Assembly (NCBI RefSeq): GCF_003987065.1
Contig: NZ_PIPY01000007.1
Coordinates: forward strand, 62,001-126,000
DNA from: Pseudidiomarina insulisalsae
GTDB taxonomy: Bacteria > Pseudomonadota > Gammaproteobacteria > Enterobacterales > Alteromonadaceae
Direction: 5' to 3'
Length of the DNA: 64,000 nucleotides
Made by a program: the position numbers and the translations under genes. The number at the start of each line of letters is the position of its first letter. The first letter of the stretch is position 1. The notes under the pieces are model-generated. The model made no database searches. It worked only from the letters and a program-made list of their open reading frames with translations, and was not told the origin of the DNA. Below, one piece after another: positions 30,180 through 33,856 of the stretch.

Positions 30180-30407
30180 AAAAATCGAATTTTGGTCTAA
30201 AAAAGTGTCAATTGACCGCCTTCACCGTAACTCAGAACGGTCGCGCGGCTCAATTGAATATTAGTTGGTAAGATATTGTTTAATTTCAGGAAAGTGGTTA
30301 AAAAAGGCTTGCGTTGTTGGCGTATACAGGGCATATCTTGAAGCGCACCGAAACGGTTTTTGGTGCGAAGTCCGAGCTGATTCGGAATCAACTACAAGGA
30401 AGATAAG
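30180..30407 (+). other. uvrY leader region with two small hairpins
   Basis: This 228-base gap precedes the uvrY-like gene. Close to the start are two hairpins: CGCACC/GGTGCG (30344-30349 with 30362-30367, 12-base loop) and TCCGA/TCGGA (30371-30375 with 30382-30386). AAGGAAGATAAG then leads into the ATG. GGA in a ribosome site is the core of CsrA sites, so CsrA control is possible but unproven. I see no RNA gene and no clear -35/-10 pair. Confidence 0.35.
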
Positions 30408-31091
30408 ATGACGGAGTTCATCGTCGCCGTACCCTCACAGATTGTGAGCATCGGTATGCAAACGTTAATTAATCAAGATCCTCACTTTAAAGTCGCTGCC
30501 GTCGTAACCAATCAACACCAACTACGCGACGCCATCAGTCAATCACCTTATGCCACCGTAATTCTGGGAAGCCAGCTATGTGGTGACGGTACCATTGAAA
30601 TCTGGCGACGCATTCAGCGCCGGTTTGCCGATGTGCAGGTGTTGCTTTGGGCAGTCAGGTTTCAGGACGTGCTTGATTTTCAGTGTAACCTGGATCGGGT
30701 TGAAGGCTACTTGCTGGCGTCCGCCCAACAGTCGGAGTTTCTGCAGGCCTGTCAGACACTCAGTCGCGGACGGATCTACGTGGCGGCAAGTGTTGCCGAA
30801 TACCTGGCCCGGAATCCGGCCCGGCAACGGCAAAGTGAGGTGCTGAGTAAACTCAGTAAACGTGAGATTCAGGTCGCACAGATGATCGCCCAGGGGCGAC
30901 GGGTTGCCGTTATCGCACGGTTGCTGAATATCAGCAGTAAAACAGTAAATACCTTTCGCTACCGAATCTTTGATAAACTTGAGTTAAGTGGTGATGTAGA
31001 ATTAACCCATCTGGCCTTACAGACAGGCCTGGTGGATCTTGATGTCGAGGTGATAGTTGAAGAAGACGACGCAGCAGAGGGAGACCTTTAA
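30408..31091 (+). CDS. uvrY: UvrY/GacA-family LuxR-type regulator with degenerate receiver domain
   Basis: The protein has 227 residues. The C-terminal LuxR-type helix-turn-helix (about residues 145-205: [44 protein letters not shown]) is very close to UvrY/GacA. The gene order with uvrC and pgsA is that of E. coli. The N-terminal receiver aligns with E. coli UvrY (recalled sequence) without gaps through residue 104, but all residues needed for phosphorylation are changed. Asp8 and Asp9 are Val8 and Pro9, Asp54 is Gly54, Thr82 is Ala82 and Lys104 is Ala104. It is therefore probably not phosphorylated by a BarA-type kinase. An acidic tail ([10 protein letters not shown]) is also present. The 3' end overlaps uvrC by 35 bases. 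Confidence 0.88.
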
Positions 31092-32937
31092 CCCGAAGCA
31101 GTTTCTGCAGAGCCTGACTCATCAACCAGGCGTTTATCGCATGTACGATGAGTCAGGCGATATTATTTATGTCGGTAAAGCCAAAGACTTACGTAAGCGC
31201 GTGGGCAGCTATTTCCGTGCCCAGGTCGATAGTCCGAAAACGCAGACACTCGTGCGGCAAATTGCTCATATTGATGTCACGGTAACGAACACCGAAGCCG
31301 AAGCGCTGATCCTCGAAAACAACTTCATCAAAAAATATCGTCCGCGCTACAACGTGTTGCTGCGCGATGACAAATCTTATCCCTATATTCTGGTCAGTGA
31401 TCATCAGCATCCGCGCCTGGCGTTTCATCGCGGTACCCGGCGTGAGAAAGGCCGTTATTTTGGTCCGTTTCCCAACGGCGTTGCCGTGCGTAACAGTTTG
31501 CGCTTGCTACAGAAACTGTTCCCGGTGCGGCAGTGTGAAGATTCTTACTATCGGGCGCGTAGCCGCCCATGCCTGCAGTATCAGTTGCAGCGTTGTCTGG
31601 CGCCTTGTGTAAAAGGCTATTGCAGCGACGAGGACTATAATGAACAGGTGGATCTGGCCAAGGCCTTTCTTGAGGGCAAGAACCAGCAAGTGATTGACCA
31701 ACTGGTGATTAAGATGGAAGGCGCCAGTGAAGAATTGCAATTTGAACGCGCGGCACGTTTTCGTGATCAGATTGCGGCGTTACGCCAGGTACAGGAACGT
31801 AACGCGGTCACCGGTAATCAGCAGGAGCTGGATGTGATCGGCTACGCCCGCCAGGGCGGTATCGCGGCGATTCATTTACTGTTTATTCGTGAAGGTTCGG
31901 TGCAGGGCAGTCGCAGCTATTTTCCTAAGGTACCGGCCAATACCGAAGACAGTGAAGTTCTGTTAGCCTTCTTATTGCAGTTTTATCTTAACGATCAGAT
32001 CGAGCGACGCCTGCCGCGCGAGATTATCCTGCCCGAACAAAATGCCGCCACTGTGCTTGATCCCGAACAGGAATTGCACACGCTGGAACAGGCGCTGGCA
32101 CAGAAAATACGCATGACCCATAATGTCAGAGGCGAGCGGCGCAAGTACCAGATCCTGGCGCAGAAAAACGCCATGAACGCGCTCGATAGTAAAGCCAATC
32201 AGGCCAGCACTATGATGATGCGGGTCAGGGCACTGGAGCAGGTGCTTGATTTTGGTCGTCCTATCACGCGCATGGAGTGTTTTGATATTAGTCATACCAT
32301 GGGCCAGGAAACGGTTGCGTCCTGTGTGGTGTTTGATCAGCAGGGACCGAAAAAAAGTGACTACCGGCGCTACAATATCAAAGGTATTACCCCGGGTGAC
32401 GATTACGCGGCCATGGCACAGGTGCTGCAGCGGCGCTTTGATCCGCTGAAACAGGCGAAAGCTGATGCTGCCGCTATGCCTGACGTGTTATTTATTGACG
32501 GAGGCAAAGGGCAGTTGACGCAGGCTGAGAATTATTTTTCCGATTGGCCGACGATTGCGGCACGCGCGGCACCTTTGTTGGTCGGCGTGGCCAAGGGCGA
32601 GTCCCGTAAGCCCGGTCTGGAAACGCTGATTCTGGCGGGCGGTCACGCAACTATTCCGCTTCCCGCGGATGCGCCGGCGTTGCATCTGGTGCAACATATA
32701 CGCGATGAGTCGCATCGCTTTGCGATTACCGGACACCGGCAGCGCCGCGCGAAAGTTCGCCGTACCTCACGGTTAGAAGATATTCCCGGTATTGGTGCTA
32801 AGCGTCGTCAACGTTTACTGCAAAATCTGGGTGGATTACAACAGGTAAAACAGGCTAGTATTGAGCAACTTGCAGCGGTACCTGGCGTCAGTCATGAACT
32901 AGCTGAAACCATCTATCACGCGTTTCGCGACGAATAA
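31057..32937 (+). CDS. uvrC: Excinuclease ABC subunit C
   Basis: The protein has 626 residues in this frame. The GIY-YIG domain ([25 protein letters not shown]) is at residues 25-45, the UVR motif for UvrB binding is [17 protein letters not shown], the C-terminal RNase H-like nuclease is near [19 protein letters not shown] and FIDGGKGQL, and two helix-hairpin-helix motifs end the protein ([13 protein letters not shown]). It makes both incisions in nucleotide excision repair. TTG 31057 is the only start before the conserved core and has GAGGTG upstream. It overlaps uvrY, so the two are probably translationally coupled. Confidence 0.97.
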
Positions 32938-32954: not shown

Positions 32955-33503
32955 ATGTGGAATATTCCCAACTTGCTGACCAGCTTTCGCATTCTGTTAA
33001 TCCCTGTGTTTTTAGGTATTTATTACCTGCCGGGACAAGACGCTCATTTCTGGGCGGCGTTTATCTTTGCGCTGGCGGCAATTACCGACGGTCTGGACGG
33101 CTACATTGCCCGGCGTTTTAACCAATTTACCCAGTTCGGCGCATTTCTAGACCCAGTGGCAGATAAAGTCATGGTGGCAGCATCGCTGGTGGTGGTAGTG
33201 GAAAACTACGCCACCTGGTGGATTAGCCTGCCCGCGCTAGCTATTGTCAGTCGCGAACTGGTGGTTTCAGCGCTACGCGAATGGATGGCGCAGATTGGCC
33301 ATCAGAGCAAGGTAAAAGTATCGAATCTTGGCAAGGTGAAAACCACCGCGCAAATGGTCGCTATTGGCGGCCTGATTTGGGAAGCCAATACCTTTGTGGT
33401 GGTGGTCGCTACCGTTTTGCTCTATGTCGCCTTTGTCCTGACGCTTTGGTCAATGTGGAAATATTTACGCGCCGCCTGGTCAGATTTAAGCCAAGTGGAT
33501 TAA
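32955..33503 (+). CDS. pgsA: CDP-diacylglycerol--glycerol-3-phosphate 3-phosphatidyltransferase
   Basis: The protein has 182 residues and several membrane segments. The CDP-alcohol phosphatidyltransferase signature DGLDGYIARRFNQFTQFGAFLDPVADK (DG-x2-AR-x8-G-x3-D-x3-D pattern) lies near residues 45-75. It makes phosphatidylglycerol-phosphate in the inner membrane. It follows uvrC after 17 bases and precedes three tRNA genes, the same order as in E. coli. Confidence 0.97.
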   Translation: MWNIPNLLTSFRILLIPVFLGIYYLPGQDAHFWAAFIFALAAITDGLDGYIARRFNQFTQFGAFLDPVADKVMVAASLVVVVENYATWWISLPALAIVSRELVVSALREWMAQIGHQSKVKVSNLGKVKTTAQMVAIGGLIWEANTFVVVVATVLLYVAFVLTLWSMWKYLRAAWSDLSQVD

Positions 33504-33582: not shown

Positions 33583-33658
33583 GCGGGAATAGCTCAGCTG
33601 GTAGAGCACAACCTTGCCAAGGTTGGGGTCGCGAGTTCGAATCTCGTTTCCCGCTCCA
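33583..33658 (+). tRNA. tRNA-Gly (anticodon GCC)
   Basis: A 76-base cloverleaf. The acceptor GCGGGAA pairs with TTCCCGC, the anticodon loop is TTGCCAA, the T loop is TTCGAAT, and TCCA ends the gene. It corresponds to E. coli glyW downstream of pgsA. Confidence 0.97.
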
Positions 33659-33666
33659 AACTCGAT

Positions 33667-33740
33667 GGCGGGTTGGCAGAATGGCTATGCAGCGGATTGC
33701 AAATCCGTGGATCTCGGTTCGACTCCGGGACCCGCCTCCA
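33667..33740 (+). tRNA. tRNA-Cys (anticodon GCA)
   Basis: A 74-base cloverleaf. The acceptor GGCGGGT pairs with ACCCGCC, the anticodon is GCA within GGATTGCAAATCC, the T loop is TTCGACT, and TCCA ends the gene. It corresponds to E. coli cysT. Confidence 0.97.
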
Positions 33741-33769
33741 TCGAAAACTTCAGGTAGTACCTCAGGTAT

Positions 33770-33856
33770 GCCCGGGTGGTGAAATTGGTAGACACAAGGG
33801 ATTTAAAATCCCTCGCTGGCAACAGCGTGCCGGTTCAAGTCCGGCCCCGGGCACCA
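33770..33856 (+). tRNA. tRNA-Leu (anticodon TAA)
   Basis: An 87-base class II tRNA. The acceptor GCCCGGG pairs with CCCGGGC, the anticodon loop is TTTAAAA with anticodon TAA, there is a long variable arm (CGCTGGCAACAGCG), and ACCA ends the gene. It corresponds to E. coli leuZ. A T-run follows shortly after, but no clear terminator stem. Confidence 0.97.

Follow-up and report, generated by a model that had tools for sequence, protein, structure and literature searches.

In E. coli, UvrY of the BarA/UvrY (GacS/GacA) system, a global regulatory two-component system that is conserved widely among gammaproteobacteria, needs phosphorylation in vivo, according to excerpts of PMC4682653. The stretch of Pseudidiomarina insulisalsae DNA analyzed here (64,000 nucleotides; referred to as the window) contains a gene that looks like the uvrY orthologue and from whose product the residues for receiver phosphorylation are missing. 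This raises the question of whether the protein is still used and, if so, what would control it in place of phosphate.

The uvrY orthologue of P. insulisalsae lacks the receiver phosphorylation residues

The open reading frame (ORF) starts with ATG, has no internal stop codons, and is, judging by gene order and DNA-binding domain, the uvrY/gacA orthologue (Table 1). It is followed by uvrC, pgsA, and the genes for tRNA-Gly, tRNA-Cys, and tRNA-Leu in the order found in E. coli K-12, and in all 53 loci examined, uvrY and uvrC lie on the same strand and pgsA is present. Using Pfam, we detected a GerE domain at 59 bits; 34 of the 61 residues in this DNA-binding part are identical to E. coli UvrY, and the recognition helix is kept. 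The initial annotation had proposed both the uvrY-uvrC-pgsA-tRNA order and a UvrY-type DNA-binding domain, and both are confirmed by these data. In the receiver, 23 of 120 residues are identical to E. coli UvrY. For comparison, six canonical relatives share 68 to 87 of 120 residues with E. coli UvrY in the receiver and 39 to 48 of 61 in the DNA-binding part. The Pfam Response_reg model scored 14.5 bits (cut-off 30.2), and the top NCBIfam family, UvrY/SirA/GacA (NF007018), scored 126.1 bits (cut-off 280); automatic annotation would probably not call this protein a response regulator. Protein matches are mostly from Pseudidiomarina, the nearest being that of P. sediminum (80% identity).

Against the database sequence of E. 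coli K-12 UvrY, the receiver aligned with zero gaps over residues 1 to 104, as the initial annotation had claimed. D8, D9, D54, T82, and K104 of E. coli UvrY correspond to V, P, G, A, and A in P. insulisalsae, and the complete loss of the phosphorylation site that had been reported thus stands and, as described below, concerns the whole clade. Receivers that lack both the Asp pair for metal binding and the Lys are not expected to accept phosphate, and because these residues are gone, P. insulisalsae UvrY is not expected to do so. The role of the Asp pair in receiver phosphorylation is covered in excerpts of PMC12632262. Three Asp residues that are well conserved in the clade (D87, D90, and D99) were considered as a phospho-site in a shifted position and were rejected by topology alone; in the predicted model, they would sit in helix 4 or before strand 5 rather than where strand 3 ends.

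Table 1. Coordinates of features (positions in the window unless a locus is named)
Feature	Position	Strand	Basis or remark
uvrY/gacA orthologue, 227 aa, pseudo-receiver and LuxR/GerE DNA-binding domain	30408..31091	+	ORF, Pfam, NCBIfam, E. coli alignment
Pseudo-receiver (residues 1-120)	30408..30767	+	no gaps against E. coli UvrY over residues 1-104; predicted (beta-alpha)5
Codons 8-9, Val-Pro replacing metal-binding Asp-Asp pair	30429..30434	+	alignment
Codon 54, Gly replacing phospho-acceptor Asp	30567..30569	+	alignment
Codon 82, Ala replacing switch Thr	30651..30653	+	alignment
Codon 104, Ala replacing conserved Lys	30717..30719	+	alignment
GerE/LuxR DNA-binding domain (residues 148-208)	30849..31031	+	Pfam GerE; conserved helix
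Predicted leader hairpin, 10-bp stem, 41-64 nt upstream of uvrY ATG	30344..30367	+	comparison of leaders
uvrC	31057..32937	+	overlaps uvrY end if TTG start correct
pgsA	32955..33503	+	ORF, gene order
tRNA-Gly, tRNA-Cys, tRNA-Leu	33583..33856	+	order as E. coli glyW-cysT-leuZ
csrB-like RNA upstream of tadA (third genus: G227, G292, G358, G281)	L130:1150-1441; also L131, L132, L133		

The loss extends over three genera

Orthologues were read in 56 genomes, i.e., 26 of Pseudidiomarina, 19 of Idiomarina, and 11 of a third genus that we infer to be Aliidiomarina (together referred to as the clade). These numbers represent all 26 Pseudidiomarina and all 19 Idiomarina genomes drawn and 11 of the 17 third-genus genomes drawn; the counts exclude the other six as well as genomes with no match (11 of 395 and 3 of 59 in two genome searches). 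Asp8, Asp9, and Lys104 are gone in 56/56 genomes. Asp54 is gone in 52 and still D in four third-genus genomes (4/11), while Thr/Ser82 is also gone in 52, with T or S kept in one Idiomarina and three third-genus genomes (3/11). The loss of all five residues is complete in 48 of the 56 genomes. These include all 26 of Pseudidiomarina, P. insulisalsae among them, which argues that the loss is more than chance. In the four third-genus loci with Asp54 (L081, L082, L083, and L084), the Asp pair and the Lys are missing, and three of these four have the csrB-like RNA next to tadA described below.

Outside the clade, and with T or S at position 82 scored as intact, all five residues are kept in 73 of 74 orthologues, comprising 14/14 relatives and 59/60 genomes of the family or order that were among the best matches listed and are not a random sample. 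The sole exception (L345 in genome G032) is a UvrY that is canonical apart from a Gly in place of Asp54 and is perhaps a spontaneous gacA-type culture mutant. The loss appears to be clade-wide and old.

In a UvrY tree, clade and canonical rows are split by one branch (support 100/99) with a total length of ~3.0 changes per site (2.64 and 0.38 on the two sides of the drawing root); the program issued a warning about the meeting of long branches. In a UvrC tree of 43 loci, the 29 clade rows are joined with support 100/98 on a branch of 0.20. The simplest history is a single origin before the three genera split, a burst of UvrY change, and a stepwise loss of D54 and T82; we consider the latter stepwise because some third-genus members keep D54 or T/S82.

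The initial annotation offered a phosphorylation-independent UvrY as one of several explanations, and on the sequence evidence this would be the likeliest reading. In general terms, we favor, with a probability of roughly 60%, that UvrY of this clade is a pseudo-receiver transcription factor that has become disconnected from BarA and, probably, also from csrB, and that is controlled by its amount, a partner, or a ligand.

csrB-like RNAs, UvrY boxes, and the uvrY leader

In five of five outgroup genomes and in E. coli, a csrB-like RNA is preceded by a UvrY box (1 to 2 mismatches) 156 to 199 bases upstream. Four third-genus genomes (G227, G292, G358, and G281) contain a GGA-rich RNA with 12 to 14 GGA per 200 bases in the interval between a transporter-like gene and tadA (genes identified by reading). 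At none of these four loci is the RNA preceded by a UvrY box with up to 2 mismatches. All four have an exact TGGC-N7-TTGC, which corresponds to the core of a sigma-54 promoter, 34 to 92 bases before the first GGA (background, 0.017 per 350 bases); the motif was chosen after viewing the sequences, and the G227 and G292 loci are near copies. L132 and L133 share TTAAGTAATTGAT just upstream of the RNA, which resembles an IHF site.

Using RF00018 with strict filters and at most 17 candidates scored per genome, we found csrB in 0/15 Pseudidiomarina and 0/19 Idiomarina genomes and, as a control, in only 5/24 outside genomes. A second model (R1), built from the four third-genus rows and run on 13 Pseudidiomarina, 12 Idiomarina, 13 third-genus, and 1 outside genome, gave a next best score of 21.5 bits versus 157 to 191 bits for its source rows and nothing in the outside genome, and the weak R1 matches taken up as loci had GGA counts of 9 or less. 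Because both models also miss outside genomes, the failure to detect csrB with them in Pseudidiomarina and Idiomarina carries little weight. A search for an AGGA-triple pattern, which gives at least two right-strand matches in each of nine csrB loci tried, covered the host, G307, and G014, with the matches in the latter two scanned in part. It revealed no csrB-like RNA in the host among the 46 of 55 matches scanned for GGA (maximum, 9 per 200 bases versus 12 to 17 for csrB). A site in G307 at 2564230 was rejected as not csrB-like, the RF00018 matches of G303 and of G209 resemble terminators, and the tadA neighborhoods scanned in Pseudidiomarina and Idiomarina contain nothing csrB-like. The host genome has 7 UvrY-box sites at one mismatch versus 2 for a reversed control; the 5/7 with surroundings read fall inside ORFs, and no UvrY targets were identified among them.

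Upstream of uvrY, 24 of 25 Pseudidiomarina leaders have a potential stem of 7 to 13 bp located 24 to 67 bases before the ATG, the exception being that of P. planktonica (L054), while the stem sequences differ widely. Tested singly and with G-U pairs allowed, 10 of the 25 leaders have a significant stem (shuffle P < 0.05), and several of these ten are near copies. RNAalifold returned zero pairs on the leader alignment, in which stem positions do not line up from one subgroup to the next. In a comparison with the other genera that leaves out 10 outgroup rows begun at the wrong codon, no comparable stem was found except in L069 (9 bp) and L080 (13 bp). That pairing is kept while the stem sequence has changed suggests a leader RNA element that may control the amount of UvrY. 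In several members of the host subclade, a second small hairpin of the CCGAA..TTCGG type comes after the first. The L080 stem (third genus, 34 to 62 bases upstream of uvrY) carries a GGA loop and is similar to hairpins bound by CsrA.

These data bear on the possibility that UvrY is locked in an active state and still binds its old site, with output set by the UvrY level only. It is consistent with the recognition helix, in which K178, T179, and N181 to R186 are invariant in 57/57 aligned clade rows, and with the suggestion from the leader hairpin that UvrY amount is controlled. Moreover, in excerpts of PMC4682653, phosphorylation in vitro raises the affinity of E. coli UvrY for csrB only ~two-fold, and unphosphorylated UvrY (in a preparation with some UvrY-P) binds csrB DNA with about half the affinity, so UvrY without phosphate may still bind. 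The same excerpts report that UvrY-csrB crosslinking in E. coli in vivo needs UvrY phosphorylation and that the SirA D54A substitution abolishes CsrB expression. However, position 54 in the 56 clade genomes is G, S, C, H, F, A, or (in the four genomes mentioned) D and never Glu, which makes a built-in phosphomimic unlikely. The absence of a UvrY box within 2 mismatches from the third-genus csrB-like loci and, weakly, the failure to detect csrB in Pseudidiomarina and Idiomarina also argue against a locked-on UvrY, and we consider it unlikely.

Predicted structure and newly fixed receiver residues

An AlphaFold2 model based on 26 sequences predicts the strand and helix order of a (beta-alpha)5 fold followed by a linker and a helix-turn-helix domain (mean pLDDT, 82.9; pTM, 0.60). 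In a PDB sequence search with P. insulisalsae UvrY, NarL was listed first (E, 2.8e-8). We defined a residue as newly fixed if neither E. coli nor the canonical consensus has it. A7, L39, and W81 are newly fixed in all three genera (55 to 57 of 57 rows, one genome being counted twice), and W66, R68, R72, Q86, D87, F91, Q92, and C93 in Pseudidiomarina and Idiomarina. In the model, W66, R68, and R72 map to helix 3, and W81 and Q86 to C93 map to strand 4/helix 4.

This predicted clustering would fit a UvrY that has been taken over as a ligand or redox regulator, the sensor being a pocket or a surface formed near W66, W81, F91, and C93. According to excerpts of PMC12632262, helix 3 is among the regions often used by pseudo-receivers that bind ligands, and Cys-based redox control is known for RitR. 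Still, the cluster may reflect mere packing or a dimer surface, and we give this specific version low odds. The pseudo-receiver transcription factor that we favor is compatible with a ligand as one of several types of control.

The receiver is under purifying selection

Most species pairs are saturated. The dN/dS was pooled over five close pairs chosen by hand; taken by itself, one of them shows a saturated receiver dS. The pooled omega of the receiver (residues 1 to 120) is 0.041 (bootstrap, 0.026 to 0.058), and in the same five pairs, the values are 0.008 for the UvrY DNA-binding domain and 0.023 for uvrC. Thus, the UvrY receiver is under purifying selection. The initial annotation had argued from retention of fold and synteny that the protein is still used. 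Purifying selection and the kept gene order support this as far as they go, while retention of the fold depends on the AlphaFold model, because the receiver has only the low identity to E. coli UvrY given above and scores below the Response_reg cut-off. That uvrY is decaying, has no function as a protein, and is kept only for translation into uvrC, with which its ORF overlaps in the host, is very improbable given a receiver omega far below 1 in the five species pairs and a uvrY ORF that is open in 56/56 genomes read.

The clade has CsrA and a csrA-linked hybrid kinase

The initial annotation had raised the use of another GacA copy. Among the matches in searches of the host genome (2.56 Mb, 99.7% complete), we found no second UvrY-like regulator, and this suggestion received no support. 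A search with PF00072 identified 19 receiver domains in the host; those with LuxR-type outputs other than UvrY itself were picked by reading, and none of them adjoins uvrC. L002, which lies beside a DesK-like kinase, was rejected as GacA (102.2 with the UvrY model versus 175.6 with MadR, its best model), as was the NarL-like L003 (84.1). The proteins of L275 and L276, with LuxR-type output and intact-looking receivers, are not located at uvrC and do not pass as UvrY.

The BarA sensor domain PF09984 (sCache_4) was over the cut-off in 0/51 clade genomes (one weak match), the host included. It was over the cut-off in 8/24 outside genomes; among the 16 others, UvrY is canonical in the 8 read. Because these 16 genomes also lack the domain, its absence alone does not prove that BarA function has been lost. 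With full-length BarA as the query, the best stretch in 29/29 clade genomes does not begin before BarA residue 248, and in the host, it covers BarA residues 279 to 891 only. By comparison, BarA was matched over nearly its full length in G071, G026, and G100, which have canonical UvrY, while the canonical relatives G034 and G187 have 7TMR-DISM sensors on a BarA-type core.

The best BarA match in the clade is a different hybrid kinase that combines HisKA and HATPase domains with two receivers and an Hpt, joined by PAS in an Idiomarina example. Its gene lies at most ~7 kb from csrA in 28 of 29 clade genomes, the two being on different contigs in G350. In the host, the order is alaS-csrA-tRNAs-oadA-oadB-kinase-gshA (gene names by reading), and the kinase (L168:6657-8735, minus strand) has intact catalytic motifs. 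The kinase frame is 678 to 765 aa in eight of nine Pseudidiomarina genomes versus 879 aa in P. planktonica and 869 to 918 aa in Idiomarina and the third genus. A stand-alone receiver (L277; G000:C16:117050-117385) is encoded ~10 kb from the host kinase and is a possible partner of it. CsrA was found in 40/40 genomes searched, the host included.

In favor of a csrA-linked kinase that still acts on UvrY by binding without phosphotransfer, the motifs of the catalytic His, both receiver Asp residues, and the Hpt His are all kept in 29/29 genomes. Against it, such an intact relay points to another, phosphorylatable partner, and the top NCBIfam family of the kinase, BarA, scores 536.6 bits, below the cut-off of 890; we consider this reading very improbable. 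Of the Gac/Bar pathway presumed for this organism in the initial annotation, CsrA is present; a BarA with its sensor was not found in the host, and csrB was undetected or, in four third-genus genomes, lacks a UvrY box. Because the loss in UvrY is clade-wide, no sensor-bearing BarA was found, and csrB is undetected or, in those four genomes, has a sigma-54-like promoter, it is doubtful that the pathway in its usual sense survives in P. insulisalsae.

Discussion

With E. coli UvrY and the UvrY/SirA/GacA family (NF007018), the P. insulisalsae protein shares gene order, length, and a GerE domain with a nearly identical recognition helix; it differs from E. coli UvrY in that all five catalytic receiver residues are replaced and in scoring below the family cut-off. 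As for the rest of the BarA/UvrY system, no sensor-bearing BarA was found in the host, and csrB was not detected there or, in the third genus, has no UvrY box. The same cascade exists in a related gammaproteobacterium, Shewanella oneidensis, as BarA/UvrY-CsrB1/B2-CsrA, and there, according to excerpts of PMC11045786, UvrY has Asp54 and is phosphorylated in vivo in a BarA-dependent manner.

Pseudo-receivers are of a known kind. To our knowledge, none of the described examples (ChxR, HP1043, RitR, and others) is a UvrY/GacA orthologue that can be traced by gene order to a phosphorylated ancestor. Excerpts of PMC12632262 describe ChxR, HP1043, and RitR as atypical response regulators that likewise combine a receiver-like domain without the catalytic residues with a DNA-binding domain, put pseudo-receivers at ~6% of receivers in one bacterial set and at several per cent overall, and state that the mechanisms by which bacterial pseudo-receivers are activated and inactivated remain a mystery. 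In our literature search, in which sources were available in part, we found neither a description of a UvrY/GacA that lacks its Asp nor any work on UvrY from these genera, and a natural clade-wide conversion of UvrY/GacA did not turn up.

For the pseudo-receiver transcription factor that we favor, we propose the following sequence of events. With the BarA input and the csrB target lost, the phospho-switch would have been relaxed, and the receiver may then have been rebuilt as a fixed dimerization module or a module that binds a protein or ligand. The structure of the protein would fix its state. Activity would depend on how much UvrY is present, which the leader hairpin may control in Pseudidiomarina, or, alternatively, on a partner, a ligand, or the redox state (C93), and the targets would be genes other than csrB. 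A more far-reaching and tentative scenario, to which we assign clearly less than even odds, is that the whole Gac-Csr circuit has been rewired, with the BarA input lost, UvrY blind to phosphate and having new targets, and CsrA controlled from elsewhere; in one lineage, csrB would depend on sigma-54 and an enhancer-binding protein, and the csrA-linked kinase would be a candidate sensor.

The clade represents a natural case in which UvrY has become a pseudo-receiver; it can be compared both with canonical relatives and with forms that are eroded in part and in which D54 or T82 is still present. This lineage allows a test of which changes make a phospho-switch independent of phosphate and of what becomes of a global cascade once its input is lost.
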